Position numbers and translations under genes: made by a program
Notes under the pieces: generated by a model
Database searches by the model: none
What the model was told of the DNA's origin: nothing
The model's input: the letters and a program-made list of their open reading frames with translations, nothing else
Origin: an uncultured Clostridia bacterium
Lineage (GTDB): Bacteria; Bacillota; Clostridia; Christensenellales; Aristaeellaceae
Assembly: GCA_947167215.1 (NCBI GenBank)
Contig: CAMVHE010000006.1
Location: 1-64,000, forward strand
DNA: 64,000 bases
Direction of reading: 5' to 3'
Part shown: in pieces, positions 26,509 to 52,996 of the stretch
Layout: each line of letters starts with the position of its first letter
Numbering within the stretch: position 1 is the first letter of the stretch

Positions 26509-26525
26509 CATGGAGGAGTTCAAAT

Positions 26526-27305: not shown

Positions 27306-27308
27306 GCG

Positions 27309-28112: not shown

Positions 28113-28178
28113 TCTCCGGACCACATCGATATGATAGGAACACATTACCCAACGACCAACGGAAAAGGAGCTGTCAAA

Positions 28179-29171: not shown

Positions 29172-29196
29172 GAAACAGGGAAAGGAGGCCGCGGAG

Positions 29197-29979: not shown

Positions 29980-29984
29980 TTCGG

Positions 29985-30941: not shown

Positions 30942-31879
30942 TCCGCTCTATATGCCTGAATCCCACCATTGACAGGACTTACTATGTGGATGACTTTATT
31001 CCCGGCAATCCGTATCGCAATACCAAAGTGGTGGTGGATGTAGGAGGCAAGGGCATCAATGTAGCCAAGGTGGCTGCAGGCCTGTGCGTGCCGGTGGTCT
31101 GCTATGGTTTCCTCGGACGGGAAAACGGCAGAAAGGTGAAGGATGCACTCCTTGCCATGCACGCCGACGTCCGTTTCCGGGAAGTTCCGGGGGAAACGAG
31201 AACGACGGTGAATATTATTGACCATGCCGCACAGAAGGAAACCGAGATCCTGGAGGCAGGACCCCGGATCGGGGAAGCCGAAGCGGAAGAACTTCTTAAA
31301 ATGATCAGCGGGGATATTCAGCAGGATGATATTGTGATCTGCTCCGGGCTTTATGCTCCAGGGATTCCGGATGACTATTATGCACGGATCAGCCGGGCAT
31401 GCCGGGAAAAAGGAGCGTACTGCATTCTGGATTCGAATGGAAAAGATCTCCGGAATGCCCTGGATGGTTCGTACTGGATGATAAAGCCGAATGCCAGAGA
31501 GCTCTGCGAAATCAATGATGTTCCCGTTACGGAAGAGGAAGAAAAACTCATCCCCCTCGGACAGAAACTTCTCGGAAATACAAAGCATGTGCTGGTTTCC
31601 ATGGGAAGCCGAGGAGGACTCCTGATTTCCTGCGGTGAAGTATACTGTATCCATGTTCCCAGAGTGCAGGCACTGTCTACCATTGGAAGCGGTGATTCGG
31701 TTGTCGCAGGCTTTGCGGTCGGTATACAGAGAGGGCTGTCCATTCCCGAATGTGCAAGGCTTGCCCTGGCCTGCGGGACAGCAAACGCACTGACTGAAAA
31801 AGTTGCCATGCTGAACAGGAGAGACATAGAGAAAATATTACCTGAGATAAAGATTGAAAGAATAAGGACAAACGGCTGA
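30938..31879 (+). CDS. PfkB-family sugar kinase (1-phosphofructokinase-like)
   Basis: 313 aa of the PfkB/ribokinase family, closest in layout to 1-phosphofructokinase or tagatose-6-phosphate kinase: SICLNPTIDRTYYVDDF, the glycine-rich VVDVGGKGINVAKV near residue 38, and TIGSGDSVVAGFAVG with catalytic Asp near residue 248. It overlaps the aldolase by four bases and is the last gene before a strong terminator. Together with the aldolase it would phosphorylate a ketose phosphate (or analogue) and split it. No isomerase is present in the operon; that step may be encoded elsewhere or be unnecessary. Confidence 0.88.
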   Translation: MIRSICLNPTIDRTYYVDDFIPGNPYRNTKVVVDVGGKGINVAKVAAGLCVPVVCYGFLGRENGRKVKDALLAMHADVRFREVPGETRTTVNIIDHAAQKETEILEAGPRIGEAEAEELLKMISGDIQQDDIVICSGLYAPGIPDDYYARISRACREKGAYCILDSNGKDLRNALDGSYWMIKPNARELCEINDVPVTEEEEKLIPLGQKLLGNTKHVLVSMGSRGGLLISCGEVYCIHVPRVQALSTIGSGDSVVAGFAVGIQRGLSIPECARLALACGTANALTEKVAMLNRRDIEKILPEIKIERIRTNG

Positions 31880-34832: not shown

Positions 34833-34860
34833 AATGCAGGCTTCAACAGCCTGCATTTTT
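34833..34860. terminator. Terminator at the 3' end of the divergent FAD oxidoreductase
   Basis: AATGCAGGCT (34833-34842) and AGCCTGCATT (34848-34857) pair perfectly around TCAAC, with T-rich sequence on the plus strand and, on the minus strand, CTATTTTTTC just beyond. It could serve both directions. Confidence 0.7.
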
Positions 34861-34872: not shown

Positions 34873-36150
34873 TCATTGTGATTCTGAAGAGGAATATAAG
34901 GGCAGATGCTGACGAAGAAGCGAATAAGGAAGCTGATGTACAGAGTTCCCTGACTGACAGCACAGGGCGGCTGCTGTACCGGCAGACTGCCCTAAAGCCA
35001 TGCAGGTGCCCTGTACCCGTGTGGATGCATGTGCCGAATGATTCACAGAAATGGCGCGCCCTGTGACCAGAAGATTGTCATATACGGGAGAAATGAGGGA
35101 GCGGTAAGAAATCGGTCCGGGCTGCTCCAGTTCCAGTAAGGTCTGCCCGTCATCATACGGATGATGGATATCAATGGGGTGGGCGGCATAGGCAACAGGG
35201 TCGGGTATGACAGAGTCAGCGTTCCAGTCATTTTCCGTAACGGTATGAACACCCTCCAAATGGCACCCCTCACGAATGCCAATCAGGGGAGCAGAGTAAG
35301 AGATGCTGCAGTTATGAAACTCAGCATAATGTGAACGCAAAAGTTCCACAAGCTGAAACATATCTTCCCGCATTTGGCATACTGCCCGGGTTATGGAGTC
35401 TTCATCGTCTGCAGCGGGGGTGCAGCGGGTCATATTGACTGCAAGACGGTCGCCATGCAGGAGTGTATTCACCCAGGGACCACCAAAGTCGGGAGCTGTG
35501 CCGTTGCTGTGTTCTCTTTTCAGAAATTCACGAAGCTCAGTGCAGACAGAACGCTGTCCCTGTTTTCCATTGTGATGTATGTGGGTTTTGAGCAAAGCGG
35601 TACTGCAGTCCACACCGGATAATTCAAAGCATAGGGTCAGCGGCTGGGAGGCTTTGGAACAGGACTGAATTCCGAGCTTTCTGCAAAGGACTCCTTCTCC
35701 GGTTGCATCAATGAAGTAGTTGGAGGTAATTGTCCAGGTGCCTGTAAAACCTGCAATCTGAATGGAGAGAATATGCCGATCCTGTGCATTTAATTCGGTA
35801 ATGAGAGAGTCCGTGAGAAGATGAACACCTGATTCAATGACCATCCGCTGCGCAATCAGTTTGTAAACTTCGGGATCAAAGGAAATATGTCCTCTTGGGT
35901 ACTCTATCAGCGCAGCGTTTTCGGCCTGCAGCCGCTGGATCAGTTCCCAGGGAATACCATCGACAACCCGCCTGCCATTGAAGAAGAAACCGCTGACAGG
36001 TACTACAAGACTGGCTGTGGCGGCACCGCCCAGGAACCCGAACCGTTCAACCAGACAGGTGCGGCATCCGGACCGTGCCGAGGCAATTGCTGCAGTAATT
36101 CCGGAAGGGCCGCCGCCGCAGACGATCACATCGAAATGCTGGTTTGACAT
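34873..36150 (-). CDS. FAD-dependent oxidoreductase (FAD_oxidored type), divergent member of regulon 2
   Basis: 425 aa. N-terminal dinucleotide-binding motif VIVCGGGPSGITAAIASARS with LVERFGFLGGAATASL next, and a C-terminal GRAISVNHSAHASTRVQGTC ... ALGQSAGTAA segment. This is the pattern of the FAD_oxidored (PF12831-like) family, common beside sugar importers and sulfatases in gut bacteria. It has no signal peptide, so it is cytosolic. The start at 36150 has AAAGGAGGG upstream; the longer frame enters the promoter. The promoter carries an operator between -35 and -10, so it is controlled with the operon on the other strand. The likely role is oxidation or reduction of a sugar carbon. Confidence 0.85.
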   Translation of the reverse strand: MSNQHFDVIVCGGGPSGITAAIASARSGCRTCLVERFGFLGGAATASLVVPVSGFFFNGRRVVDGIPWELIQRLQAENAALIEYPRGHISFDPEVYKLIAQRMVIESGVHLLTDSLITELNAQDRHILSIQIAGFTGTWTITSNYFIDATGEGVLCRKLGIQSCSKASQPLTLCFELSGVDCSTALLKTHIHHNGKQGQRSVCTELREFLKREHSNGTAPDFGGPWVNTLLHGDRLAVNMTRCTPAADDEDSITRAVCQMREDMFQLVELLRSHYAEFHNCSISYSAPLIGIREGCHLEGVHTVTENDWNADSVIPDPVAYAAHPIDIHHPYDDGQTLLELEQPGPISYRSLISPVYDNLLVTGRAISVNHSAHASTRVQGTCMALGQSAGTAAALCCQSGNSVHQLPYSLLRQHLPLYSSSESQ

Positions 36151-36172
36151 GTTTTTCCCTCCTTTGGGGGTC

Positions 36173-36201
36173 ATGGTAGAATGGAATATTCCAATTGTCA
36201 A
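36173..36201 (-). promoter_or_regulatory. Promoter with operator in spacer, divergent FAD oxidoreductase
   Basis: Minus strand TTGACA (36201-36196), 17 bases, TACCAT (36178-36173). The spacer contains the palindrome TGGAATATTCCA (36182-36193). The related palindrome at 36287 lies in the opposite promoter. Confidence 0.8.
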
Positions 36202-36279
36202 GAAAAACAGACAAATGAACAATATATATAAATTAATATGATATAATATGTGCAAAAACGATAAACTAAAAAAGTGCTA

Positions 36280-36308
36280 TTGACATTTGGAATGTTCCAA
36301 AATAGCAT
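36280..36308 (+). promoter_or_regulatory. Promoter with operator in spacer, second LacI gene
   Basis: TTGACA (36280-36285), 17 bases, TAGCAT (36303-36308), with TTGGAATGTTCCAA (36287-36300) filling the spacer. This placement would block RNA polymerase directly and implies autorepression. Confidence 0.82.
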
Positions 36309-36336
36309 AAATTTAGCAAAAATGACGGAGACATTT

Positions 36337-37383
36337 ATGGCTACAATCTGGGATGTTGCCAATCTGGCAGGAGTATCAAAGAGTACTGTTTCGCTGGTTG
36401 TTAACCGCAGCCCGCTGGTAAAGGAAACGACAAGACAGAAAGTGCAGGAGGCAATCCGTATTCTTGATTATGTCCCAAACTATAATGCCAGAAGCCTGAC
36501 CAAAAGGAAAAACAACAGCATTGGCATCATTCATATGCGCCGCAGTACGCGGGCAGCGACGCAGTGCTATGAATGGGACTGCAGCATAGAACAGTTTTTT
36601 CATGATATTGAGGAAAGTGTATGTTCTGCTGTAGTTGATCTGAATGAAGATCTGAGCATTGTGAAGGAGCATCTTCATTCAGGGACAGATGCTCCTGCGA
36701 TGGCGAAGATTATCCGGGACCGTAGAGTGGATGGCGTGATTTTCGTAGGAGGCATGGATGATGCTGCCGAACTGGTACAGGTTCAGAAAGTGGATATTCC
36801 GGTTGTCCTTGCAACATCCAAGCTGAATCTGGAAGGAATTGACCTGGTCATGCATGACCCATCCGGCGGAACGCGTCTTGCAGTGGAGAAGCTGATCGAT
36901 ACCGGACATCAGAGAATCTGCCTGATTAACTGTCCGCAGAGATTCAGAATCTGGCCGGCAAGAATACAGGGCCTGCATGATGCCATGGCAGGAAAAGGAA
37001 AAATACAGGACCCGAGATTAATGGTTTCTGTGGACCAGATGAATGCACATAATGCTTATGACACATTTGCCCGGGTCCTGGACTCGGGCGTGAAACCGGA
37101 TGCGGTAGTAACCGCTAACCCGGATCTTGCCATGGGGGTACTTCATTGTCTTTATGACAGAAGAATCCGTATTCCGGATGATATATCTGTCATCTGCTAT
37201 GAAGACTCCGGAATATGCGGAAGCATGAGCCCGCCACTGAGTGCGGTGAATATCCGAAAAGAAGAAATGGGACGAACAGCACTGAATTTTCTGCTCGATC
37301 GGATAAGCCATCCGGAAACCAAACACAGAAAAATGACAGTTGAGCCTTATCTGGTTATGAGAGGCAGCGTGAAAACCCGGTGA
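36337..37383 (+). CDS. LacI-family transcriptional regulator (regulon 2)
   Basis: 348 aa. Residues 3-23 are the helix-turn-helix (TIWDVANLAGVSKSTVSLVV), with the hinge helix YNARSLTKRK near residue 55 and a sugar-binding-protein-like sensor domain after that (DGVIFVGGMDDAAELV; GHQRICLINCPQRFRIWPAR). The start ATG 36337 follows ACGGAGAC and lies about 28 bases from the -10; earlier ATGs sit in or next to the promoter. The operators at 36182, 36287 and 37478 (TTGGAA-N2-TTCCAA type) are its likely targets: the divergent oxidoreductase, its own gene and the main operon. Confidence 0.87.
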   Translation: MATIWDVANLAGVSKSTVSLVVNRSPLVKETTRQKVQEAIRILDYVPNYNARSLTKRKNNSIGIIHMRRSTRAATQCYEWDCSIEQFFHDIEESVCSAVVDLNEDLSIVKEHLHSGTDAPAMAKIIRDRRVDGVIFVGGMDDAAELVQVQKVDIPVVLATSKLNLEGIDLVMHDPSGGTRLAVEKLIDTGHQRICLINCPQRFRIWPARIQGLHDAMAGKGKIQDPRLMVSVDQMNAHNAYDTFARVLDSGVKPDAVVTANPDLAMGVLHCLYDRRIRIPDDISVICYEDSGICGSMSPPLSAVNIRKEEMGRTALNFLLDRISHPETKHRKMTVEPYLVMRGSVKTR

Positions 37384-37397
37384 CTGTTTCACCGGGT
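37375..37397 (+). terminator. Hairpin over the regulator's stop codon
   Basis: ACCCGGTGA (37375-37383) and TCACCGGGT (37389-37397) pair perfectly. No T-run follows, so termination is likely partial. Confidence 0.45.
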
Positions 37398-37477
37398 ACA
37401 ATGGCAGTCCCAGACAGGAGTCCGGGAGAAAGAGAAACGGTCGTAAAAAGCGGATATTGATTTTCATTAAGCATTTA

Positions 37478-37491
37478 TTGGAACGATCCAA
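37478..37491 (+). promoter_or_regulatory. Third operator of regulon 2
   Basis: TTGGAACGATCCAA lies 20 bases before the main operon's first ATG. Half sites match 36287-36300; only the central bases differ. The surrounding sequence is AT-rich but I could not fix a -35/-10 pair. Confidence 0.7.
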
Positions 37492-37511
37492 ATCTGAAAG
37501 GAAAAGGAAAA

Positions 37512-38897
37512 ATGGATGCATTGGGGATAAACGTCCGGGAACCGGCGGAGTTTAAAACGGAGGTGCTGGTGATAGGCGGAGGTCCCGCCGGCTGTATGGC
37601 TGCAATCAGTGCAGCGAGAAATGGCCGGGACACCATTCTTGTAGAAGAGAATGGATTCTGCGGAGGAATGGCGACCGCGGGCCTGGTGGGACCGTTTATG
37701 ACCTGCTACGACCGGACCGGGGAAGAAATGGTTGTGAGAGGGCTTTTTGAGGAACTGGTAAACCGTCTGGTCGAAAGACATGGAGCAATTCATCCCTCCT
37801 GCATACGTGCAGGAACCCCATATGTTTCATGGATCGAAGAAGGACATGATCACTGTACGCCGTTTGATGCCGAAAAGATGAAAAAGCTTCTGGAAGAAAT
37901 GCTCATTGAAAGCGGAGTTCATCTGCTGTATCACACAGTCTTCATTGAAACGCTTATGAGAGGAAATCTGGTTGAAGGCGCCGTGGTCAAAACCAGATCC
38001 GGAATAAAGAAAATCCGGACCGGGGTGGTCATTGACTGCACGGGGGACGGAAATGCTGCAGTGAGTGCCGGAGCGGAATTTGTCAGCGGAAACGGAGAAA
38101 ATGCAGTCCAGCCGGCAAGCATGTTTTTCCGTATCTGCAATGTGGACAGTGAACGCCTCGAGGCAGACATTGAAGCCCACCGTCATCTTTTCCGCCGGGA
38201 AAACGGCGTTGCCTACCGCTGCTTCCACTGGCTGGTTGACGAGGCAAAAAAAAGAGGAGAATGGCACATCAACCGGGCAAGCATCGGCCTTTACAAAGGA
38301 GTGGCCCCGGATGAATGGTGTGTAAATACTTCGCGGGTCCTGGGAGTGGATTCAACGGATTCGCTCAGCCTCACAGCAGGGGAGGTGGAAGGGCGGAGAC
38401 AGGTTGAGGAAATCATGCAGTTTTTGCATAAATATGTTCCGGGATGCGAAAACGTAAAACTGATGGCCAGCGGTTCAACGCTTGGTATCCGGGAAAGCAG
38501 ACATATCTGCGGAGATTACTGGATGAAAGCAGAAGATATTATCGACGGCCGCATTCCGCCGGACACGATTGCGGTATGTTCCAATTCGGTAGATGTTCAC
38601 GGAAAACTGGGGCCAAATACGACAGAGTATATTACCATGAAGCAGGGAAGATACTATGGTATACCGTATCGCAGCTTACTGGTGAAGGGCATCGAAGGAA
38701 TGCTGGTCGCGGGGCGCTGTCTTTCTGCGGATTACAAGGCGGCAGGGGCGGTCCGCGTAATGCCGCCCTGTATGGCCATGGGGCAGGCGGCAGGGACAGC
38801 TGCGGCGATTTCCGTAAGAGACGAAAGTACGCCGAGAGCGCTGGACCCGGAAAAGGTCCGGACGCAGCTGAGAAAGGATGGCGCTTTTCTTCCCTGA
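37512..38897 (+). CDS. FAD-dependent oxidoreductase (FAD_oxidored type), first gene of the main operon
   Basis: 461 aa. The dinucleotide motif VLVIGGGPAGCMAAISAARN near residue 16 and VEENGFCGGMATAGLVGPFM are followed by a C-terminal MLVAGRCLSADYKAAGAVRV ... MGQAAGTAAA. Middle residues include SGSTLGIRESRHICGDYWM, a conserved block in this family (SGS-LG-RESR). It is homologous to the enzymes at 34873 and 45526. No signal peptide. Purine-rich GAAAGGAAAAGG precedes ATG 37512. As the first gene of the sulfated-sugar operon it probably acts on the imported sugar or its derivative, by hydroxyl oxidation or the reverse; the exact chemistry is unknown. Confidence 0.85.
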   Translation: MDALGINVREPAEFKTEVLVIGGGPAGCMAAISAARNGRDTILVEENGFCGGMATAGLVGPFMTCYDRTGEEMVVRGLFEELVNRLVERHGAIHPSCIRAGTPYVSWIEEGHDHCTPFDAEKMKKLLEEMLIESGVHLLYHTVFIETLMRGNLVEGAVVKTRSGIKKIRTGVVIDCTGDGNAAVSAGAEFVSGNGENAVQPASMFFRICNVDSERLEADIEAHRHLFRRENGVAYRCFHWLVDEAKKRGEWHINRASIGLYKGVAPDEWCVNTSRVLGVDSTDSLSLTAGEVEGRRQVEEIMQFLHKYVPGCENVKLMASGSTLGIRESRHICGDYWMKAEDIIDGRIPPDTIAVCSNSVDVHGKLGPNTTEYITMKQGRYYGIPYRSLLVKGIEGMLVAGRCLSADYKAAGAVRVMPPCMAMGQAAGTAAAISVRDESTPRALDPEKVRTQLRKDGAFLP

Positions 38898-38953
38898 GAT
38901 GAACAGGATGTTGCATGCACAAAGCATGAACAAAATAGAAGGAGGGAAAACCT

Positions 38954-40309
38954 ATGAGAAAAATGTTGTCTTTGGTATTGGCACTGATGATGATTCTGGG
39001 GCTGATGGCATATGCGGCTGCAGAAAGTGCGCAGCCGGATATCACGACGTGGATCTTTGCCAATGAAGATCCGAACATGAAAGGCACGGTGAGGTTCTAT
39101 ATTCCATTTTCCGGCAAGCAGGGAATGGATGCCATGATTGCGGAGTTCAACAAAAGCTATCCCAATATCACGATTGAACTGAATACCTACAGCAACAACG
39201 CAGACGGAAATATCGCATTGAACAGCGAAATTAACTCGCAGCAGTGTGATGTCGTAGCATCTTTTGAGATCCATAACCTCATGAACCGGCTGAACAACGG
39301 CATGTATCTGGATTTAACGGACCGCATTGAAGCAGAAGGCATTTCCCTGATGGATAACTGGGGAACCGAGGCATACAACATGGACGGCAAAGTATATGTC
39401 CTGCCATGCGGCGGCCTTACCCACTTTGTTGCCATCAAAAAGAATGCATGGGAAGCTGCCGGACTGGGCGACTATCCCACCGACTGGACATGGGACGAGT
39501 ATATTGAAGCAAGCCGGGCAATGACTGTGCGTGATGAAGCCGGAAACACTACGGTTTACGGCGGCAGCCAGTATCAGGTCATTTCGGACCTTCTGGATTC
39601 GGTTTATCAGGTAAACGGCTGCAACCGTTTCTATCGTGCGGATGGAAGCTGCATCTTTGACGAACCGTGGATCAAAACACTGATACAGAAAAACATCGAT
39701 GCAGAAAAAGAAGGCATCTGGTATAAGATGGACGCTTACCGGAGCGATAATTACAAGACATGGTTTGCTTATACGGATGGAACCGTCAATTCCACCGTGG
39801 GATGCAACCTGATCCGTTTCCTGCGTGACACGGAGACCTACCCGATGGATACGCTGACGGTGTTTGCACCGTATCCGGTAGTGGAAAAAGGCCAGGTAAA
39901 CTACGAGTCCGGTATCAATTATTTCTCCTTTGTCGGCATGACCCGCGGATGCCAGGATCCGGAGGCAGCCTGGGCATGGATCAAATGGTACAGCACCTAT
40001 GGCTCCAAATATCTGACGCTGGCAGGACATCAGTCCACGTGGAAGGGAACCGACTCCGGCGCGCTGGTGGATCTGATCTTCGGCTCAGAAGAGGAAGCGG
40101 CAAAAATTGTTGACGTGGAATCCTTTAAAAAATGGGTAGGCAATCCCAATAATCCGTCTGCTTATACGGACAATGCAACAGCATACTCGAAACTCAGTTC
40201 TATCTGGGATGAATATGTGATGTATGCATTTACGGGAGATATGACAGTGGATGAGGCACTCGATGAAGCTGCCCGTCTTGGCAATCGTGCCATTGCAGAC
40301 GCTGAATAA
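38954..40309 (+). CDS. Sugar ABC transporter substrate-binding protein (family 1)
   Basis: 451 aa. Signal peptide MRKMLSLVLALMMILGLMAY-AAA without a clear lipobox Cys. The mature part follows the extracellular solute-binding family 1 pattern: GTVRFYIPFSGKQGMDAMIA, FNKSYPNITIELNTYSN, PTDWTWDEYIEASRAMTV. It captures an oligosaccharide or sugar for the two permeases that follow. No matching ATPase gene is in the operon; a shared MsmK-type ATPase elsewhere is likely, as is usual for this class. GGAGGG precedes ATG 38954. Confidence 0.88.
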   Translation: MRKMLSLVLALMMILGLMAYAAAESAQPDITTWIFANEDPNMKGTVRFYIPFSGKQGMDAMIAEFNKSYPNITIELNTYSNNADGNIALNSEINSQQCDVVASFEIHNLMNRLNNGMYLDLTDRIEAEGISLMDNWGTEAYNMDGKVYVLPCGGLTHFVAIKKNAWEAAGLGDYPTDWTWDEYIEASRAMTVRDEAGNTTVYGGSQYQVISDLLDSVYQVNGCNRFYRADGSCIFDEPWIKTLIQKNIDAEKEGIWYKMDAYRSDNYKTWFAYTDGTVNSTVGCNLIRFLRDTETYPMDTLTVFAPYPVVEKGQVNYESGINYFSFVGMTRGCQDPEAAWAWIKWYSTYGSKYLTLAGHQSTWKGTDSGALVDLIFGSEEEAAKIVDVESFKKWVGNPNNPSAYTDNATAYSKLSSIWDEYVMYAFTGDMTVDEALDEAARLGNRAIADAE

Positions 40310-40323
40310 GCAGAATGCCACTT

Positions 40324-40353
40324 CCCGGGAAGAAGACATCCCTTCTTCCCGGG
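40324..40353 (+). terminator. Hairpin between binding protein and permease genes
   Basis: CCCGGGAAGAA (40324-40334) and TTCTTCCCGGG (40343-40353) form an 11-bp stem followed by ATTTTC. Such hairpins often lower permease relative to binding-protein expression. Confidence 0.65.
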
Positions 40354-40419
40354 ATTTTCAAAAGCTGCACAGCGGCAGATGCCTGTGTTTACGAGGATGC
40401 GCACGGAGGGTGTGAGACT

Positions 40420-41304
40420 ATGAATAAACGAAAAGAAAACCTGGCTGGATATGCTTTCATTGCTCCGGCGCTTATTATTTTTCTGGCGTTGGTAGCGATT
40501 CCTTTCTTTTTTACAATCTACCTGTCTTTGACAAAATGGAACTTTCTGTCCGGCTGGGGCAATATCAAGTTTGTCGGTCTGAAGAACTTTGCCGATATGG
40601 CATTTGACCGCCGTTTCAAGTATGCAGTACAGAATGTTTTCATTTATTCTTTTTCCATTGTCCCCATTTCGATCCTGATGGCCTTACTGCTGGCCTATCT
40701 GCTGAATGACAAGGTTTTCGGAAAAACGGCACTGCGTTTTTGCTTTTTTATTCCCTATATTTCAAGCTCCGTGGCGCTGGCTGCCGTTTTCAAGTTTCTG
40801 TTCCGGGATAATGGCATTATCAATGCCATCCTGATGCAGGTATTCGGACTGCAGGAGTCCATTCATTGGTTTACAGACCTCAAGTTTTCAAAGGTCCCTA
40901 TCATTATTTTTGTTATCTGGGTACAGATTGGCTTTGAACTTATCATCTATATGGCCGCGCTGCAGAATGTGCCGAGGGACCTGTATGAAGCGGCAGAGAT
41001 AGACGGAGTAACCCCCTGGAAGAAGTTCTGGAGAATCACTTTTCCGATGATCAGCCCCACAACATTCTACCTGGTGGTTGTTCAGTTTATCCATGTGTTT
41101 AAGATATTTAATGCGATTGACATCATGTCCTTCGGCAATGTGACCGCGTATGGCAATACATCGTTGGTTCTGGAGATCTACAGCAACGCATTCAGCGATT
41201 ACAACTTCGGATATGCCAGCGCTGAGGCACTGGTACTGCTGGGGATCATTGCAGTAATGACGGCAATTAACTGGATCGGGCAGAAAAAGTGGGTTCATTA
41301 TTGA
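40420..41304 (+). CDS. Sugar ABC transporter permease (MalF/UgpA-like)
   Basis: 294 aa with six membrane helices. The N-terminus is LAGYAFIAPALIIFLALVAI; the coupling loop is EAAEIDGVTPWKKFWRITFP near residue 200, matching the EAA motif of the binding-protein-dependent family. ATG 40420 with CGGAGGG upstream was chosen over an ATG at 40315, which would overlap the hairpin. It works with the second permease and the binding protein to import a carbohydrate. Confidence 0.9.
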   Translation: MNKRKENLAGYAFIAPALIIFLALVAIPFFFTIYLSLTKWNFLSGWGNIKFVGLKNFADMAFDRRFKYAVQNVFIYSFSIVPISILMALLLAYLLNDKVFGKTALRFCFFIPYISSSVALAAVFKFLFRDNGIINAILMQVFGLQESIHWFTDLKFSKVPIIIFVIWVQIGFELIIYMAALQNVPRDLYEAAEIDGVTPWKKFWRITFPMISPTTFYLVVVQFIHVFKIFNAIDIMSFGNVTAYGNTSLVLEIYSNAFSDYNFGYASAEALVLLGIIAVMTAINWIGQKKWVHY

Positions 41305-41319
41305 TGGGAGGCGAGGAAA

Positions 41320-42147
41320 GTGAAGAAGAAAAAACTGACGGCCAGGATCCTATGTACGGTACTGGTTTCCCTCCTGGCATTACTGTTTGCCATGCCTCTG
41401 GTCTGGATGATCCTGGCATCGCTTAAGACCACACGGGAAGTCTTCGGAGAAAACTGGCTTCCGGCTGTACCGAAATGGGGCAATTACCGGGAAGTATGGA
41501 CGAATTCACAGGTGAACCTGTTCCGTGTTTACAGAACCTCTCTGACCATCGTCATTCTGGGAACGAGCGGCCAGCTGATTATTTCTTCCCTGGCGGCATA
41601 TGCATTTGCAAAGATCCGGTTCAACGGGCGCAACGTGATATTTACGCTTTTCATGCTTTCCATGATGATCCCCGTCCAGGCGACGATCATCCCGAGGTAT
41701 ATGTTCTTTTACGAGATCGGACTCTATAATACCGTATGGGCGCTGATTCTCCCGGGATGGTTCGGTATTACTTCCATTTTTCTGCTGAGACAGTTCTACA
41801 TGAGCCTGCCCAATGAGCTGATGGAGGCTGCAAGAGTGGATGGAGCAGGGCATTTCCGGACTTTTCTGCAGGTAATGATGCCGCTGACAAAGCCTGCAAT
41901 GATTTCAACGGTGATTCTTTCCTTTATCACGACCTGGAATGATTATCTTTCCGCCCTGATTTTTCTTCCCAACAAAAAGCTCTATACAGTCGCCCAGAGC
42001 GTGAGATTCTGGCTGTTTGACGGTGACCAGCGCTATGAACTGACGATGGCGACTGCTACCAGTGTGGTTGTTCCGGTAGTGATTCTGTTTTTCTTCTGCC
42101 AGAAGTATTTCGTTGAAGGACTTGCGACATCCGGCGTGAAAGGTTAA
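41320..42147 (+). CDS. Sugar ABC transporter permease (MalG/UgpE-like)
   Basis: 275 aa with six helices. The EAA-type loop is MEAARVDGAGHFRTFLQVMM near residue 168, and the C-terminal YFVEGLATSGVKG is typical of the MalG side. GTG 41320 follows GAGGAAA and lies 15 bases after the first permease. A partner of the preceding permease. Confidence 0.9.
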   Translation: MKKKKLTARILCTVLVSLLALLFAMPLVWMILASLKTTREVFGENWLPAVPKWGNYREVWTNSQVNLFRVYRTSLTIVILGTSGQLIISSLAAYAFAKIRFNGRNVIFTLFMLSMMIPVQATIIPRYMFFYEIGLYNTVWALILPGWFGITSIFLLRQFYMSLPNELMEAARVDGAGHFRTFLQVMMPLTKPAMISTVILSFITTWNDYLSALIFLPNKKLYTVAQSVRFWLFDGDQRYELTMATATSVVVPVVILFFFCQKYFVEGLATSGVKG

Positions 42148-42151
42148 GGCA

Positions 42152-43834
42152 ATGGAAAAATCATACGTCATTGGACTGGACTATGGCTCTCTTTCCTGCA
42201 GGGGAATTCTGGTCTGTCTGCAGGATGGATGTACTGCAGCGGAAGCGGAATATGCTTTTCCTCATGGAGCCATTTCCCGTCATGCTCCGGATGGGACCGC
42301 ACTCCCGGAGGGATGGGTCCTTCAGGATCCTTCTGACTTTGAAGAAGCGCTTTTTACTACAGTGAGAGCACTTATGGAAAAGAGCCGTGCCGAACCTTCT
42401 GCGGTACTTGCAATTGGAATTGATACAACGGCAAGTACGGTTATTCCGGTAGATTCGGAACTGCGGCCGCTCTGTTATCAGCCCCGGTGGAAAAGCAACC
42501 GGTATGCATGGCCAATGATGTGGAAACATCATGCATCCGCACCGTATGCCGTTGCCATGACAAAGGCGCTTTCCGAGAGAGGAAGTTCATTGCTTTCAAG
42601 ATATGGCGGTGCGATAGGTGCCGAATTTTTCCTGCCCAAGGTTGTCCAGATTGCAGTGGAAGAACCGGAGGTATACAAAGCGGCAGATACTTTTCTGGAA
42701 CTTGGGGATTATCTGGTCAGCCTGCTTGTCGGTCATGAAACAAGAAGCGGAACTATGCTGGAATGCAAAGCAGGGTGGACAAGGGATACGGGATACCTTT
42801 CTTCCGCATTCTTTGAGTCCATTGGTGTGCCGGATGTTCCCGGGGAGAAACTGATGGGAAGAGGGGGAAAGGAAGAAAGCGATTTCTGGCCCGGGGAAAA
42901 GGCAGGAACCCTATGCGAAGAAATGGCAGTAAAACTGGGCCTGAATTCCGGCACCGCAGTAACGGCGGCACAGATGGATGGATATGCGGGGCTTCCCGGC
43001 AGCGGTATATCTGAAGAAGGCAGACTGATGATGATGGTGGGAACATCCACTGCATATATGCTGCTTCAGCACCAGGGCAGGCCGATACCGGGAATCTGCG
43101 GCGCAACCGAAGACAGCATCCTGCCGGGGTATACCAGTTATGCGTGCGGCCAGGCCAGTGTGGGGGATGCCTTTGAATGGGCGGTGAACAATGTGTTTAC
43201 GGCTTCCTGTCGGCAAAAGGCACTTGAACAGGGCGTAAACCCGCATGAATACTTGTCGGGCCTCGCCGGGAAAATGAAACCGGGCGAATGCGGTCTGCTG
43301 GCATTGGACTGGCTGAATGGAAATAAAAGCATCCTGAATGATGCTGATTTATCCGGAATGATCCTGGGACTGACGCTGAGGACCCGTCCCGAACATATTT
43401 ACCGCAGCCTGATGGAAGCAACGGGATTCGGAGCGCGGAAGATTATCGAAAACCTGGAGAAGCAAGGTGTCCATGTGGGCGCGATAAGCGTTACAGGAGG
43501 CATTGCACGGAAAAACCAGGTGCTGATGCAGATGTATGCAGACATTCTCGGACGCGAGATAGGTGTGATGGAAGCGGAACAGACAGCAGCGCTTGGGGCT
43601 GCGGTATATGCAGCTGCAGCGGCGGGTGCCTTTCAGACGGTGGAGAACGCTGTTGAGAAGCTGGCAGACCATCCGGTCCGGACCTATTATCCCGATCCGG
43701 AAAACCACAGATTATATGATGTGCTTTATGAGCAATACAGCAGACTTCATGATCTGTTTGGAAGCGGTGAAAATTCGATGATGGCAACGCTTCGTGCTCT
43801 GGCCAAAGAAAACAGGGGGGAAAGTCATGAGTAA
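42152..43834 (+). CDS. Ribulokinase-like FGGY sugar kinase
   Basis: 560 aa, the size of AraB-type ribulokinases. Matches are VIGLDYGSLSCRGILVCLQD at the N-terminus, ALPEGWVLQDPSDFEEAL, IGIDTTAST near residue 90, PMMWKHHASAPYAV, and the FGGY C-terminal domain with VGTSTAYMLL and ISVTGGIARKNQ. It phosphorylates a keto- or ketopentose-like sugar with ATP in the cytosol. It starts 5 bases after the permease and overlaps the sulfatase gene by 8 bases. No isomerase is in the operon; one or more of the FAD oxidoreductases might supply the keto sugar, though this is inference. Ribulokinase identity is by family resemblance and not proof of substrate. Confidence 0.85.
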   Translation: MEKSYVIGLDYGSLSCRGILVCLQDGCTAAEAEYAFPHGAISRHAPDGTALPEGWVLQDPSDFEEALFTTVRALMEKSRAEPSAVLAIGIDTTASTVIPVDSELRPLCYQPRWKSNRYAWPMMWKHHASAPYAVAMTKALSERGSSLLSRYGGAIGAEFFLPKVVQIAVEEPEVYKAADTFLELGDYLVSLLVGHETRSGTMLECKAGWTRDTGYLSSAFFESIGVPDVPGEKLMGRGGKEESDFWPGEKAGTLCEEMAVKLGLNSGTAVTAAQMDGYAGLPGSGISEEGRLMMMVGTSTAYMLLQHQGRPIPGICGATEDSILPGYTSYACGQASVGDAFEWAVNNVFTASCRQKALEQGVNPHEYLSGLAGKMKPGECGLLALDWLNGNKSILNDADLSGMILGLTLRTRPEHIYRSLMEATGFGARKIIENLEKQGVHVGAISVTGGIARKNQVLMQMYADILGREIGVMEAEQTAALGAAVYAAAAAGAFQTVENAVEKLADHPVRTYYPDPENHRLYDVLYEQYSRLHDLFGSGENSMMATLRALAKENRGESHE

Positions 43835-45317
43835 AGGAAAACATGTACTGATGATTATGACGGACCAGCAGAGGTTTGATACGATTCATGCACTGGGGTG
43901 TGAGAAAGCGATAACACCGAATCTGGATGCACTTGCAGAAGACAGCCGTGTCTTTACCCACTGTTATACCAGCAGCCCTGTCTGTGCGCCGGCGAGACTG
44001 TCATTGTACAGCGGACTGTATCCTGCAAAACATGGCAGTGCCAACAACAGCCCGAACCTCTGCTACACCGGGGACGGTATGTATGGAATCATGAGTGATG
44101 CGGGTGTGGATACGCTGGCAATCGGGAAAATGCATTTCATTCAGGGCAGATACGAACTCCACGGGCTTCAGCGAAGAATTACCCAGGAAGAACTTCCGAA
44201 TCCGGAAAATGATGATTACACGAAGTTCCTGATGAATACCGATTATCGCTATGTTATCGATTACAATGGACAGCGGAGTGAAATGTATTACATTCCGCAG
44301 ATTTCCCAGCTGCCGCAGCAACTGCATCCGACGCAATGGATCGGCGACAGGGCAGTAGAGGCAGTGAAGGAACTGGACCCGGAAAGAAATCAGTTTCTCT
44401 TTGTATCCTTTATCCATCCCCATCCGCCGTTTGCCCCGCCGGTTCCCTGGAATAAAATCCACCGGGAAGAATTGTACGAGCCTTTTGTCCCGGAGCATCC
44501 GGAGAATGTGATAACCTATCATAATTATCAGCAGAACACCTATAAGGGGCTGTCTTCCGGAGTGGATCTGCATCTGCTGACGGTAATGAAGAATTACTAT
44601 TATGACTGCATCACCTTTGTGGATTACCAGATAGGCAGAATCATTGCGGAACTGAAGGAAAAAGGGCTTTATGATGATACCTTGATCATATTTACATCGG
44701 ATCACGGGGAACTGCTGGGAGATTACCATTGCCTTGGAAAACGCACAATGCTGGACTGCGTGGCGCGGGTCCCGCTGATGATCCGAAAGCCGGGGGAGAC
44801 GGCCGGAATCATGGATGAGGTCTGTTCCAATGTGGATCTTTATCCGACGATTCTTGATTATATGGGCATCCCCGGGGAACCGGAGAGGGACGGAGTGGAT
44901 CTGTTTGGCAATCTGTCAGACAGGGAATTTGTCTATTCTCAGTATGCCAACGGAACAACCGGCCTCTATATGATAGCATCCCGGAAGGACAAGCTGATCT
45001 ATTCGGCTGTGGAGGATATGTATCAGTATTTTGATGCTTTCCCGGAAGCAGAGAACCGTTATTCGGAAGACAATCCGCGATGCCGGCAAATGAAAAAACT
45101 GCTGGATGCATATATTGCTTCGGATCAGGCGATAGACAAGGATGACAGAAAGATTGACCTTCAGGAATATCTGAAAGACTATCATTATCGCCTTGTCAAG
45201 CAGGACAGTGTAAACCGTGAAAAGGATGAAAAAGGTATGCTGCCGCCGGGATACACAATTGATACGGGCATTGTATATACCTGGATGAAGAAGGAAACGG
45301 ACGCCAAACCCTGGTAG
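43827..45317 (+). CDS. Type I sulfatase (Cys-type)
   Basis: 496 aa. The formylglycine motif is Cys53 in PVCAPARLSLYSG (C-A-P-A-R), a variant of CxPxR. Metal-site sequences are MIMTDQQRF near the N-terminus (Asp13) and IFTSDHGELLGDYH near residue 290. It needs an anaerobic sulfatase-maturating enzyme, not seen here. There is no signal peptide, so it acts in the cytosol after import, which matches a pathway that imports sulfated sugar first. Its start overlaps the FGGY kinase by 8 bases (GGGGGAAAG upstream); the longer frame from 43794 is not supported. Confidence 0.9.
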   Translation: MSKGKHVLMIMTDQQRFDTIHALGCEKAITPNLDALAEDSRVFTHCYTSSPVCAPARLSLYSGLYPAKHGSANNSPNLCYTGDGMYGIMSDAGVDTLAIGKMHFIQGRYELHGLQRRITQEELPNPENDDYTKFLMNTDYRYVIDYNGQRSEMYYIPQISQLPQQLHPTQWIGDRAVEAVKELDPERNQFLFVSFIHPHPPFAPPVPWNKIHREELYEPFVPEHPENVITYHNYQQNTYKGLSSGVDLHLLTVMKNYYYDCITFVDYQIGRIIAELKEKGLYDDTLIIFTSDHGELLGDYHCLGKRTMLDCVARVPLMIRKPGETAGIMDEVCSNVDLYPTILDYMGIPGEPERDGVDLFGNLSDREFVYSQYANGTTGLYMIASRKDKLIYSAVEDMYQYFDAFPEAENRYSEDNPRCRQMKKLLDAYIASDQAIDKDDRKIDLQEYLKDYHYRLVKQDSVNREKDEKGMLPPGYTIDTGIVYTWMKKETDAKPW

Positions 45318-45430
45318 GACGGTATCGGACATCCGGGGATGATTCAGCGCACGCGGTGCACGGAATAACAGAAATCAGAGAAAACAGAACTGGCAGCAGG
45401 ATGCCGGTGTACATGTGCCGGGAAACGCAG

Positions 45431-45450
45431 AAAACAGGGGTTTCTGTTTT
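45431..45450 (+). terminator. Weak internal hairpin
   Basis: AAAACAG (45431-45437) and CTGTTTT (45444-45450) pair around GGGTTT. It lies in the 208-base gap between sulfatase and FAD oxidoreductase and may attenuate the distal genes. Confidence 0.4.
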
Positions 45451-45525
45451 TGCCCGCAAAAAAGCAAACGGAGCAATCCGGCCCATAAACAGAAAAAGCA
45501 GGCACATGGGCAAGGAGGAGTAAGG

Positions 45526-46809
45526 ATGAGAGTCTACAGCGATCATTATAATGTAGTGGTGTGCGGCGGCGGTCCTTCCGGTATCGCGGCAGCAGTGGCG
45601 GCTGCCCGTATGGGAGCAAAGACAGCACTCGTAGAGCGGTATGGTATTGTCGGGGGCATGATGACTTCCGGGTATGTCAACCCCATTCTGGGCTCAGTTT
45701 CACAGGGAACGATGTATGACGAGATAATACAGCTTCTTGGCGCTACCGGGATGAAGACAAGAAACGGATGGGAAATGAGTGTTGATGCGGAAGAAGCAAA
45801 ATACCGTCTGCTGCGCTTTGTGGAAGAGGCAGGAGTAGATATCTTTCTCCAGACACCCATTGTTGAAGTACAGAAAAATGACAGAAGTGTGACAGGCATA
45901 CGGATCGGAACACAGGAAGGGCTGAAAACGCTTTATGCAGATGTGACAGTGGATGCTACAGGCGACGGGTTTGTGGCAGCACGTGCAGGAGCGTCTTTCC
46001 AGATTGGACGGGATGCAGATGGCCTTTGTCAGCCGGCAACCCTGGAGTTTGTGGTGGGACCGGTTGACGAGGAAAAGGCGATAACCTGCTGGGGAGGAAC
46101 GGACCCGGTACGTCTGCCGGACGGAACGCCATATGTGGAATTCTGCGCACAGGCAAATGCGCGTGGAGAACTGCCGGAGAATGTTGCGGTAGTAAGACTG
46201 CACCGTACCGGATGGCCGGGAGAGCGGAGCATTAATGCCACGCAGGTCAATGGATGCAATACATTGAGCCCGGAAGGAGCATTGGATGCAGAACTGGAAT
46301 TGCGCAGACAGGTGGAAAGCATTGTGCGATTCCTTCGGAAATATGTTCCCGGCTATGAAGAATCCAGGCTGAAGGGTTCAGGCAGTACGCTTGGAGTGAG
46401 AGAATCCCGCAGAATTATGGGAGATTATATTCTGCAGGATGCGGATGTGGAAAACGGGAACGTACAGAAGGATGCAATAGTGCACAAAGCGTGGTTTCTG
46501 ATTGACATCCACAATCCCAAGGGAAGCGGACAGGCGGAAGGGCATTCTCATCCGGCAAAACCATATGATATACCTTACCGCTGCCTTCTTCCGAAAGGCG
46601 TTGAAGGAATGCTGACCTGCGGGCGCTGCATCTCCGGCACGCATCGTGCCCATGCCAGTTACAGGGTAATGGGAATATGCCTTGCAACAGGTCAGGCGGC
46701 GGGTGTGGCAGCTGCACTTGCCGCGCAGAGAGGCGTAACGCCGAGAGCGCTGCCTGCAGAGGCAGTGCAGAAAGCGTTGACGGAAAGCGGCGTAAAACTC
46801 TTTGACTGA
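45526..46809 (+). CDS. FAD-dependent oxidoreductase (FAD_oxidored type), third copy
   Basis: 427 aa. Dinucleotide motif VVVCGGGPSGIAAAVAAARM near residue 10, then LVERYGIVGGMMTSGYVNPI. The conserved middle block is GSGSTLGVRESRRIMGDYIL and the C-terminal end GRCISGTHRAHASYRVMGIC with ATGQAAGVAAAL. It is a full-length homologue of the enzymes at 34873 and 37512 but clearly diverged from both. AAGGAGGAG precedes ATG 45526. It is cytosolic. Its position between two sulfatases suggests that it works on the same sulfated sugar, perhaps at a different carbon. Confidence 0.85.
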   Translation: MRVYSDHYNVVVCGGGPSGIAAAVAAARMGAKTALVERYGIVGGMMTSGYVNPILGSVSQGTMYDEIIQLLGATGMKTRNGWEMSVDAEEAKYRLLRFVEEAGVDIFLQTPIVEVQKNDRSVTGIRIGTQEGLKTLYADVTVDATGDGFVAARAGASFQIGRDADGLCQPATLEFVVGPVDEEKAITCWGGTDPVRLPDGTPYVEFCAQANARGELPENVAVVRLHRTGWPGERSINATQVNGCNTLSPEGALDAELELRRQVESIVRFLRKYVPGYEESRLKGSGSTLGVRESRRIMGDYILQDADVENGNVQKDAIVHKAWFLIDIHNPKGSGQAEGHSHPAKPYDIPYRCLLPKGVEGMLTCGRCISGTHRAHASYRVMGICLATGQAAGVAAALAAQRGVTPRALPAEAVQKALTESGVKLFD

Positions 46810-46870
46810 GGAGCATCTGTGCAGCAACAGGATGCCGGCCGGCATATGCATGTGAATGGAGGAAAAACTC

Positions 46871-48289
46871 ATGAAAAAGCGGCCTAATATTCTCTGGCTT
46901 TGTTCGGATCAGCAGCGTTTTGATACGATCCATGCATTAGGCAATCCGGTGATTGATACACCGAATTTTGACCGGCTGTGTGAAAATGGAGTTGCCTTTG
47001 AAACGGTATATTGTCAGAACCCGGTATGCACACCCAGCCGGGCCAGCTTTCTCAGCGGCAAATATCCTTCTTCGATTAATGCAAATATTCTTGGAGCAGA
47101 GAATAACCCTGAACACTGCACCCTGATACCCAAGGCATTGAAGGACAGCGGATACCACTGCGGAAACATTGGAAAACTGCATATTTCGGCTGCCTGGTAC
47201 GGGTATGAGAAGCGGGGGGATGATGGCTACGATGAATTTATCTACAGCCTCGGTTCGGGCCATCAGCTTGAAGACGGATACAGCGAATATGCTAATTGGC
47301 TGAAGGAAAAAGGAATTGATTTTCATACGATCTTTACCAATGAAGGCGGAGATTACTACTGGTACAGGGAAGATGCACCCGTAGATCTGCGGCAGACAGC
47401 ATGGTGCGCAGAAAAAGCAGTGGAGTTCATGGAAAAAAACAAGGACAGACCATGGTTTTTAAGCGTCAATTGTTTTGATCCCCATCCTCCCTATGATGCG
47501 CCGCTTGAACTGGTGAACAAGTACCTGCAGAAAGGCGTTCCCGAACCGATATACAACCCCTCCGATGAAGAACTTTTCAGGAAGCTTCCGGCAATGCATC
47601 ATCAGACGAGATGGGTAAGTGCTCCGGGTGAGGAAATGCGGCGAAACAAGGCATCTTATTACGGATGCTGCGAAATAGTGGACAGGCATTATGGATGGAT
47701 TGTGGACGCTGTGGACCGTCTCGGACTCAGAGAAGATACCATCATAATATTTACATCGGATCACGGAGAAATGCTGGGAGACCATGGCCTGAAACTGAAG
47801 GGATGCAGATTTTACGAGGGGGCGGTTCATGTACCTTTGATCATTTCCTGTCCTTCCCGTTTTTATACAGGCAAGCAGGTGTCCGGACTGGTTGAACTCA
47901 CCGATCTGGCTCCGACAATTGCAGAAATATGCGGAATCGATTTTCCGGATACGCACGGACACAGTCTTCTGCCTCATTTGTGCGACTGTGGAAGGGAGGC
48001 CTACAGACGGGAATATGCCCGGTGTGAATACTATGCTTCGAATATGAACAGCGATCTGGGACCGGTTCCTTCCTATGCCACGATGTTCAGGACGGAACGA
48101 TATAAGCTGATTACCTATCATGGTATAGATGCCGGGGAATTGTATGATATGGAAAATGACCCTGAAGAAACGAATAACCTGTGGGATGATCCCAACTATG
48201 AAAAACTGCGGTTTGAGCTGGTAAAGCGATCTTTCGATGTGGCTATGGTTGTACAGCGCCCGGGACAGAAACGGGTTGGGAGGTATTAA
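46871..48289 (+). CDS. Type I sulfatase (Cys-type), second copy
   Basis: 472 aa. Formylglycine motif Cys53 in PVCTPSRASFLSG, the canonical C-T-P-S-R. Metal-binding stretches are WLCSDQQRFDTI at the N-terminus (Asp13) and IFTSDHGEMLGDHG near residue 295. No signal peptide. It shares only general family identity with the other sulfatase, so two different ester positions or two sugars are likely. ATG 46871 follows GGAGGAAAAA. It is the last recognised gene of the operon. Its stop overlaps the ATG of a 26-codon frame. Confidence 0.9.
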   Translation: MKKRPNILWLCSDQQRFDTIHALGNPVIDTPNFDRLCENGVAFETVYCQNPVCTPSRASFLSGKYPSSINANILGAENNPEHCTLIPKALKDSGYHCGNIGKLHISAAWYGYEKRGDDGYDEFIYSLGSGHQLEDGYSEYANWLKEKGIDFHTIFTNEGGDYYWYREDAPVDLRQTAWCAEKAVEFMEKNKDRPWFLSVNCFDPHPPYDAPLELVNKYLQKGVPEPIYNPSDEELFRKLPAMHHQTRWVSAPGEEMRRNKASYYGCCEIVDRHYGWIVDAVDRLGLREDTIIIFTSDHGEMLGDHGLKLKGCRFYEGAVHVPLIISCPSRFYTGKQVSGLVELTDLAPTIAEICGIDFPDTHGHSLLPHLCDCGREAYRREYARCEYYASNMNSDLGPVPSYATMFRTERYKLITYHGIDAGELYDMENDPEETNNLWDDPNYEKLRFELVKRSFDVAMVVQRPGQKRVGRY

Positions 48290-48441: not shown

Positions 48442-48480
48442 AAGAGGAGCCGCTGTATTTTTCAGCAGTTCCTCTTTTTA
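48442..48480 (+). terminator. Terminator of the sulfatase operon
   Basis: AAGAGGA (48442-48448) pairs with TCCTCTT (48470-48476), with inner GCTG/CAGC pairing, followed by TTTA. Confidence 0.7.
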
Positions 48481-52321: not shown

Positions 52322-52589
52322 TGAAGCGGCATCAGTTTGTGGGTTGGAAGCATATCGTGTGCTTACTCAGAATAATCTGCGGCACCAGATAAATGCAGAG
52401 TGGAGATGTTAAAAGCCTCTCAATTGGTCCAGACTACATTGCATCAGGATACTGAGATGTTAAAAATGATAAGCATAAAACTTACTCTTGATATCTCAGA
52501 GAATTCTTGCAACACCATGAATCAAGCAGTTAATGTTGCTACCTTACAATATGATGTCTGTTGCTGAATGCATTGGTGTTTGTTATGTA

Positions 52590-52996
52590 GTGTCTGCTTA
52601 ACAAACCGGGAAGTGTTGTAAATAAAGGTTTTCACATGATTTTCTGCAATACTAAGTGCAAGGTTTTGGGAACCGAAATGATGTATTTATTGACTTTGTG
52701 ACTTGCACTTAGAGGCAGGTGAGAATCGTGTACAAATCCGCAGATTTCTACCAGCAGCTCAGTTTCTTCCACTTCAATCAGACCTGCGGCATGGGATCGG
52801 ACAAGGAGTACGAATGGATTAAAAATGCTATCAGATTTCCATTTCATGGAGGAAAAGCATCAGCTGTGAATCTTCGAGATAGTCAAACTAGCAGTAGAAG
52901 AGACCGAGAAAGAAAATGAGAAGCCTAGCAAAGGGAAGCAGAATCCTGCCTACCGGGGCATCAGAATTTTAAATATAGGGTTTGTTAAGCAGACAC
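52590..52996 (+). mobile_element. 407-bp internally deleted insertion element (MITE-like)
   Basis: Perfect 18-bp terminal inverted repeats, GTGTCTGCTTAACAAACC at 52590-52607 and its complement at 52979-52996. The 6-base sequence TATGTA is repeated directly outside (52584-52589 and 52997-53002), a target duplication. Inside, a frame from 52719 reads FYQQLSFFHFNQTCGMGSDK, resembling the N-terminus of an IS transposase, and near the right end another frame reads NPAYRGIRILNIGFVKQT, like a transposase C-terminus. The middle is missing, so it can move only if a full element supplies transposase in trans. The IS family is not assigned. Confidence 0.75.

Follow-up and report, generated by a model that had tools for sequence, protein, structure and literature searches.

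A putative LacI-controlled locus combining three FAD-dependent flavoproteins, a separate-clade FGGY kinase and predicted cytosolic sulfatases in an uncultured Clostridia bacterium

Introduction

The gut bacterium Bifidobacterium breve UCC2003 has intracellular sulfatases in the gene clusters by which it uses N-acetylglucosamine-6-sulfate (Egan et al. 2016, reviewed in PMC7326374), and in Bacteroides the polysaccharide utilization loci (PULs) for sulfated glycosaminoglycans encode sulfatases alongside uptake genes, with SusC/D, lyases and GH88 enzymes and with desulfation ahead of cytoplasmic import (PMC9067506). Here, we describe a ten-gene locus in a 64,000-nucleotide stretch of DNA (hereafter the window: positions 1 to 64,000 of contig CAMVHE010000006.1, assembly GCA_947167215.1) from an uncultured Clostridia bacterium of the Aristaeellaceae, which combines three flavoproteins of one family (FAD_A, FAD_B and FAD_C) with a LacI-family regulator, an ATP-binding cassette (ABC) importer, an FGGY kinase and two sulfatases (S1 and S2). 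Like the Bacteroides PULs, the locus encodes sulfatases together with uptake genes, but its importer is of the ABC type and its sulfatases are predicted to be cytosolic. With the B. breve clusters it shares a gut bacterium as host, a sulfated monosaccharide as the likely kind of substrate and sulfatases of intracellular type; the flavoprotein trio and the FGGY kinase are not mentioned in the passages of the review consulted (PMC7326374), and the sulfatase maturase of the window's genome lies on another contig.

Two further systems resemble parts of the locus. The AraB L-ribulokinase (3QDK; NF003154) shares with the window kinase full-length homology, the catalytic Asp and a substrate-contact Lys, whereas the window kinase has Ala at the position of Glu329, QMDGY where most kinases of the Glu type have N(V/I)DAH, flavoprotein neighbours and a place in a separate clade. 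In C-glycoside degradation by PurA/PurBC and CarA/CarBC, breakdown starts with the oxidation of a hydroxyl by a flavoprotein (PMC12724307), as we propose for the window. Redox systems of the DgpABC/CarABC type pair a lyase with an oxidase gene, whereas none of the ten window genes encodes a lyase or TIM barrel. The lyases of such redox deglycosylation are TIM barrels. The closest relatives are two loci of gut Clostridia, L057 and L055, which have the same gene order from LacI through FAD_B, the solute-binding protein (SBP), permeases P1 and P2 and the kinase to FAD_C, as well as the same operator-like sites. Unlike the window, both carry genes for a YesL-like protein (named by eye) and for P313, a predicted beta-propeller protein; L057 adds a short-chain dehydrogenase/reductase (SDR) and has only S1, behind FAD_C, and L055 adds MtlD- and glycerol-1-phosphate-dehydrogenase-like genes and holds no sulfatase within its 21 kb of locus sequence. 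A preliminary description of the window had proposed a distinct catabolic design, and in keeping with this we found no prior description of the gene set in the open-access literature searched; one of the papers, PMC4252021, does not mention sulfatases at all.

Results and Discussion

A recurring flavoprotein-kinase core

Pfam and NCBIfam scans of the window's open reading frames (ORFs) placed all ten genes of the preliminary description in their claimed order (Table 1). Its remark that isomerase, aldolase and glycoside hydrolase are missing also holds for these genes, as the Pfam scan found a glycosidase, isomerase or aldolase in 0 of 10, and an aldolase gene 3 kb upstream sits in a separate operon. 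Beyond the individual genes, what makes the locus noteworthy is a conserved core of flavoproteins and kinase that seems not to have been described before, and on which sulfatase or esterase steps are exchangeable.

A non-exhaustive scan of the GTDB species genomes, based on an alignment of five FAD_C sequences and two peptide patterns, returned 60 loci. Identity to FAD_C is 45-70% in 50 of them (L055-L104), which contain its relatives, and 27-32% in the remaining 10. Loci were called core-like where tblastn also detected the kinase, FAD_B or matching ABC permeases, those cut by contig ends being counted as they stand; 20 of the 50 FAD_C loci were core-like and 30 were not. ABC permeases (15 of the 20) and LacI (14) were the most frequent companions, followed by the kinase, FAD_B and P313 (12 each), an SGNH esterase (9), a TIM barrel of the AP_endonuc_2 type and a longer FAD oxidoreductase (8 each), FAD_A and a polyol-type dehydrogenase (6 each), GDPD (2) and sulfatase (1). 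In L057, an Oscillospiraceae metagenome-assembled genome, the similarity extends along the locus (identity 62% for FAD_A, which is cut at the locus end, 51% for LacI, 60% for FAD_B, 67% for SBP, 71% for P1, 70% for P2, 53% for the kinase, 70% for FAD_C and 67% for S1), and the genes follow the window order, with extra genes interspersed, except that S1 stands behind FAD_C.

The core recurs in other Clostridia, where the preliminary description had suggested looking for the gene set, and a sulfatase accompanies it once. We rejected sulfatases as part of the conserved core, as they occur in one core-like locus (L057) and in 3 of the 50 FAD_C loci overall; the other two are L058 and L060, each with the longer FAD oxidoreductase, to which L058 adds an importer and an SDR. 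In Clostridium sp. MCC353 (L076) and chh4-2 (L084) the FAD_B/FAD_C/ABC core is accompanied by an esterase-like gene, and no sulfatase was detected within 21 kb of locus sequence. Judged from these gene neighbourhoods, the recurring core consists of LacI, ABC importer, flavoproteins and kinase, with sulfatases accessory and with esterases and other enzymes in relatives; because the sulfatases are accessory, the term sulfated-sugar regulon suits the window member rather than the family.

Among the additional enzymes in relatives are a sorbitol-6-phosphate-dehydrogenase-type SDR (score 392.7, cut-off 304), a mannitol-1-phosphate-5-dehydrogenase-like protein (364.7, just under the cut-off of 368) and a glycerol-1-phosphate-dehydrogenase-like protein (191.5, under 413). 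An unlinked SDR of the sorbitol-6-phosphate type was considered as a missing step in the window's own genome and rejected, the best match there scoring 140.6 against the cut-off of 304. The beta-propeller fold of P313 is predicted from the L057 member (L057:7347-8315; mean predicted local distance difference test score, pLDDT, 86.7); a member from L035 has no Pfam or NCBIfam match, and a search of the window's own genome, run without a positive control, gave no P313 match. The same genome holds a second locus of FAD oxidoreductase, SBP, permease and sulfatase genes on contig C18 (L044, G000:C18:24000-43900), whose permeases are 49-51% identical to those of the window, whose sulfatase was read from the DNA, and which adjoins GDPD-like and HAD-like genes (by eye).

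We propose, with about equal belief and doubt, that the window regulon imports a sulfated carbohydrate, desulfates it in the cytosol, oxidises it with its flavoproteins and phosphorylates a keto compound other than L-ribulose. The ABC importer, of oligosaccharide or polyol type, would take up a small carbohydrate bearing sulfate esters, which would be stripped in the cytosol by two formylglycine sulfatases that owe their maturation to an unlinked anaerobic maturase. FAD_A, FAD_B and FAD_C would then oxidise hydroxyls of the ring or chain, the keto compound so formed would be phosphorylated by the FGGY kinase, and the phosphorylated product would enter central metabolism via unlinked enzymes. 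The sulfatases may be an exchangeable de-capping step on the core, because relatives pair it with esterases, TIM-barrel enzymes and NAD(P)-type dehydrogenases. The sequence itself shows the set of genes, their operon arrangement, the operator-like sites, the conservation of the core and the separateness of the kinase clade. The uptake and cytosolic desulfation steps are well supported; we infer the substrate, the sugar oxidation by flavin enzymes and whether this comes before or after the kinase step, with family, gene order and kinase residues as the grounds for the oxidation and phosphorylation steps. A more far-reaching version, which we think unlikely, would make the trio a new anaerobic flavin route that needs no glycosidase to break a glycoside or cyclic polyol capped by sulfate or acyl groups: the substrate would be oxidised, then cleaved or isomerised via its keto form, and the product passed to a dedicated FGGY clade that no longer recognises L-ribulose, with sulfatase and esterase as exchangeable de-capping tools.

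Clostridia, many of them from herbivore guts by their record titles, carry a sugar-catabolic module built on a trio of PF12831 proteins and a separate kinase clade, for neither of which we found an assigned reaction. With its operator-like site, importer and boundaries, the window locus offers a direct handle on the three flavoproteins and the kinase. If the trio does replace a glycosidase or isomerase, many annotations of "FAD-dependent oxidoreductase" beside sugar importers would gain a function.

Operator sites and the extent of the regulon

When up to one mismatch is allowed, the LacI-type palindrome TTGGAAnnTTCCAA has just three sites in the source assembly (a 3.83 Mb draft in 204 contigs with an estimated 96.24% completeness and 7.14% contamination), all of them around FAD_A, LacI and FAD_B, whereas a reversed control pattern has seven sites in the whole assembly. 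As the pattern was derived from the window locus itself, its presence there is no test; its absence elsewhere and its conservation are. The second of the three sites falls within the spacer of a sigma-70-like promoter (TTGACA at 36280 to TAGCAT at 36308). The syntenic loci L057 and L055 begin with exact copies, three and one, respectively: in L057 two precede the called LacI start and one lies just after it, the start possibly having been called too early, and in L055 the exact copy before LacI is joined by a near copy before FAD_B. At two mismatches the window count is at chance level (5 versus 3.96 in shuffles), and the region shows no enrichment of promoter-like sites (22 versus 18.7 in shuffles).

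A search of the whole assembly for the operator, with one mismatch tolerated, gave no distant regulon members. Given a site that is present only at the locus and conserved in relatives, the regulator looks local, with FAD_A inside its regulon. On the plus strand the genes run with intergenic gaps of 4 to 208 bp and with an 8-bp overlap between the genes for the FGGY kinase and S1. The locus thus looks like a single LacI-controlled regulon that includes the divergent FAD_A, and the preliminary proposal of one LacI-like regulator over all genes gains support from the putative operators at the locus and in the syntenic loci.

The kinase and a possible polyol route

The window kinase is homologous to 3QDK over its full length (1.4e-139); it exceeds the cut-off of NF003154 (537.9, cut-off 428) and stays below that of TIGR01234 (491.5, cut-off 583.25). 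L-Ribulose is contacted in 3QDK by Ala96, Lys208, Asp274 and Glu329 (PMC4880283), and of these the window kinase keeps the Lys and the Asp, but Glu329 is replaced by Ala331. In a comparison of 46 distinct kinases from the collected loci, Ala or Ser occupies this position in 14 of the 18 that have FAD genes within 9 kb (13 Ala, 1 Ser) and in 0 of the 28 others, 20 of which are known from less than 5 kb of sequence, so that context is only local; the eight with at least 8.5 kb of sequence all have Glu. Three of the remaining FAD-context kinases also have Glu, and the fourth, a distant protein, has Gln. An IQ-TREE analysis of 45 rows (the distant row L098 dropped, the column of the trait itself kept, midpoint root for drawing only) set all 14 Ala/Ser kinases on one side of a branch supported at 98/90, and twelve of them at 100/99. 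Four genomes (G081, G141, G011 and G045) encode one kinase of each type; in the window's own genome a second such kinase was not found at 1e-80. By its residues and phylogeny, the kinase belongs to a separate clade and is unlikely to be a plain L-ribulokinase.

AraA (PF02610) gave no match in the draft assembly (96.24% complete), in a search where 5 of 14 controls were positive, and an AraD-like protein, named by eye, is encoded on contig C49. With no AraA detected and a kinase that is unlikely to be a plain L-ribulokinase, the earlier suggestion that a redox step replaces the isomerase and supplies the kinase with a keto sugar could still hold. Close to it is a plain polyol route, which we consider rather unlikely, in which a sulfated alditol would be imported, desulfated and oxidised by one flavoprotein to a 2-ketose, from which the kinase would make the ketose phosphate, the three flavoproteins serving different stereoisomers. 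The kinase being closest to ribulokinases, the lack of an AraA match in a genome that yet has an AraD-like protein, and permeases nearest to the UgpA, GlcU and UgpE models, though under their cut-offs, all fit such a route. It accords less well with the loss of Glu329 in the kinase clade and with the four genomes that carry an Ala/Ser kinase beside one of the Glu type, and the sorbitol-6-phosphate-type and mannitol-1-phosphate-type dehydrogenases of relatives suggest more than one oxidation.

The flavoproteins and redox-assisted cleavage

FAD_A, FAD_B and FAD_C are, by sequence identity, three separate groups: each is closer to its own counterparts in three relatives (two for FAD_A), at 42-43%, 54-60% and 59-70%, respectively, than the groups are to one another (27-37%), and FAD_B orthologs at 49-63% identity occur in 13 loci. 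A structure model of FAD_C (mf0a25b3d31e4; pLDDT 90.9, predicted template modelling score 0.92) found structural matches to the general flavoprotein fold only. The alignments likewise cover the N-terminal FAD-binding part alone, for FAD_B among the PDB matches listed and for the FAD_C profile among the best 60 of 147 PDB matches. Naming a substrate from the importer was rejected, as the best PDB match of the SBP, Lmo0181, is too weak (1.6e-08). Beside FAD oxidoreductase genes in one relative lies a gene for a 70-aa protein that by eye resembles a two-cluster ferredoxin (L065:14129-14341), a hint at the electron acceptor in that relative.

In place of the proposed oxidation ahead of the kinase, the flavoproteins might serve a redox-assisted bond cleavage that replaces a glycosidase: a 3-keto or similar intermediate would form, the glycosidic or ether bond would be eliminated, a reductase or another flavoprotein would restore the hydroxyl, and the kinase would phosphorylate the freed sugar. 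We consider this unlikely. In its favour, none of the ten genes encodes a glycosidase, AP_endonuc_2-type TIM barrels and polyol-type dehydrogenases lie in 8 and 6 of the 20 core-like loci, the binding protein, of family 1 and with a weak PDB match, points to uptake of an oligosaccharide or glycoside, and FAD-first deglycosylation of C-glycosides is known from PurA and CarA (PMC12724307). What speaks against it is that a TIM barrel is found in 0 of 10 window genes and that P313 was unmatched in the genome, in the search run without a positive control. PurA and CarA, moreover, probably belong to a flavoprotein family other than that of the window proteins.

The sulfatases

Both S1 and S2 contain CxPxR (CAPAR in S1, CTPSR in S2), KxH and DHG motifs. 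Neither has a hydrophobic N-terminus in a simple hydropathy scan, both starting directly at the first catalytic strand, and contig C74 of the same genome encodes a sulfatase maturase (TIGR03942, 369.1, above the cut-off of 349.45). Desulfation by S1 and S2 probably takes place in the cytosol, after import, as the preliminary description had it; the missing signal peptides and the maturase argue for this.

Its view of signal-less sulfatases as an unusual feature was not borne out. Of nine other sulfatases above the Pfam cut-off in the genome, six were examined, two of them with several possible starts, and all six lack an obvious signal peptide, although one has a mildly hydrophobic N-terminus if read from the most upstream ATG; B. 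breve provides a precedent for intracellular sulfatases (PMC7326374). We therefore rejected the idea of an oddity.

Alternatively, S1 and S2 might be other members of the sulfatase superfamily, either phosphodiesterases or phosphonate monoester hydrolases, with no sulfated substrate involved. Their PDB relatives comprise phosphonate monoester hydrolases besides choline sulfatases and other sulfatases, and include the entries 4upi, 4uph, 4upk and 2vqr; neither reaches any NCBIfam cut-off, choline sulfatase TIGR03417 scoring 170.6 and 212.2 against 433.45; and a GDPD-like gene lies near the FAD/ABC/sulfatase locus on C18, with GDPD homologues in 2 of the 20 core-like loci. The CxPxR and KxH motifs in both proteins, the alignment of GKMHF in S1 with the choline sulfatase 6fny, the maturase, and the top-ranking PDB match, which for each protein is the choline-sulfatase deposition 7oz8, make us doubt this reading and retain the assignment as sulfatases.

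Among 308 genomes of the family, the window's own included, S1 has matches in 9 and S2 in 5 (both at E up to 1e-70), and FAD_C in 24 (1e-90). In genus g12, FAD_C does not adjoin the S1 copies that were read, whereas in genome G235 S1 and FAD_C lie about 17 kb apart on one contig. There, the S1 homologue (50%) has another sulfatase-like gene and a gene for an FAD oxidoreductase of 584 aa within 5 kb, with HAD-like and TIM-barrel-like genes alongside (L143, G235:C22:6000-25900).

Least probable among the alternatives is a host- or plant-derived, glycosylated or cyclitol-like small molecule whose non-sugar part would be reduced or dehydrogenated by the flavoproteins, leaving the sugar as a by-product: gut samples from goat, sheep, deer, horse, cattle, buffalo or yak are named in the record titles of 23 of the 50 FAD_C loci and FAD_C stands without core genes in many genomes, but core-like loci hold LacI (14 of 20), ABC permeases (15 of 20) and a sugar kinase (12 of 20).

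Coordinates and neighbouring genes

Features of the locus are listed in Table 1. The starts of FAD_A, LacI, permease 1, S1, FAD_C and S2 were reset by the position of the ribosome-binding site (RBS); for FAD_A, the ORF was listed to 36255 from a TTG, and an ATG with an RBS lies at 36150. Pfam cut-offs were 27 bits for FAD_oxidored (PF12831) and 25 bits for sulfatase (PF00884). Behind S2, the terminator scan flagged the opposite strand only (48468-48450, minus). Rfam (gathering threshold) and tRNA scans of the window gave no matches.

Table 1. Features of the locus, with positions in the window
Feature	Positions	Strand	Evidence or remark
Terminator-like hairpin and T run, behind FAD_A	34833..34857	-	10-pair stem
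FAD_A, FAD_oxidored PF12831 flavoprotein, divergent from operon	34873..36150	-	316.1 bits, 6.1e-94; full-length
Putative operator 1, upstream of FAD_A	36181..36194		ATGGAATATTCCAA, one mismatch to TTGGAAnnTTCCAA
Putative operator 2, before LacI	36287..36300		TTGGAATGTTCCAA, exact
LacI-family regulator	36337..37383	+	PF00356 6.9e-17, PF13377 2.7e-31; RBS-based start
Putative operator 3, just before FAD_B	37478..37491		TTGGAACGATCCAA, one mismatch
FAD_B, FAD_oxidored PF12831 flavoprotein	37512..38897	+	392.3 bits, 4.6e-117; full-length
ABC solute-binding protein (SBP, family 1)	38954..40309	+	PF01547 1.1e-16; hydrophobic N-terminal signal
ABC permease 1 (P1)	40420..41304	+	nearest NCBIfam models UgpA/MalF, under cut-off
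ABC permease 2 (P2)	41320..42147	+	nearest NCBIfam models GlcU/UgpE, under cut-off
FGGY kinase, FAD-linked ribulokinase-like clade	42152..43834	+	FGGY_C 120.2 bits
S1, predicted cytosolic Cys-type sulfatase	43827..45317	+	PF00884 157.5 bits; CAPAR, residue 53
FAD_C, FAD_oxidored PF12831 flavoprotein	45526..46809	+	378.1 bits, 9e-113; full-length
S2, predicted cytosolic Cys-type sulfatase with SGSH_C domain	46871..48289	+	PF00884 155.3 bits; CTPSR, residue 53
Probable operon terminator behind S2	48443..48479	+	inverted repeat AGAGGAGCCGCTG..CAGCAGTTCCTCT then TTTT; read by eye

Upstream, at positions 25407-31879, a separate operon encodes a LacI protein of its own, an importer that has parts of the taurine/aliphatic-sulfonate type (its SsuA-like SBP at 136.3 bits, under the cut-off of 163.5) and an alpha/beta hydrolase; at 29946-31879 it also encodes the class II ketose-bisphosphate aldolase noted above (TIGR00167, 258.8, cut-off 215.6) and a PfkB hexose kinase (TIGR03168, 278.9, cut-off 216.4). 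No copy of the regulon operator was found in this operon at up to two mismatches, and it could be a route of the sulfonate or sugar-phosphate type. Downstream, at 49181-54510, lie genes for a 1046-aa helicase-like protein with a PLD-type N-terminus (by eye) and, on the other strand, for an AspBHI-like restriction endonuclease (RE_AspBHI_N, 1.7e-54), likely a defence patch. They are followed at 54780-56615 by a gene for a 612-aa protein in which an ADP-ribosylglycohydrolase domain is fused to an SseB domain.

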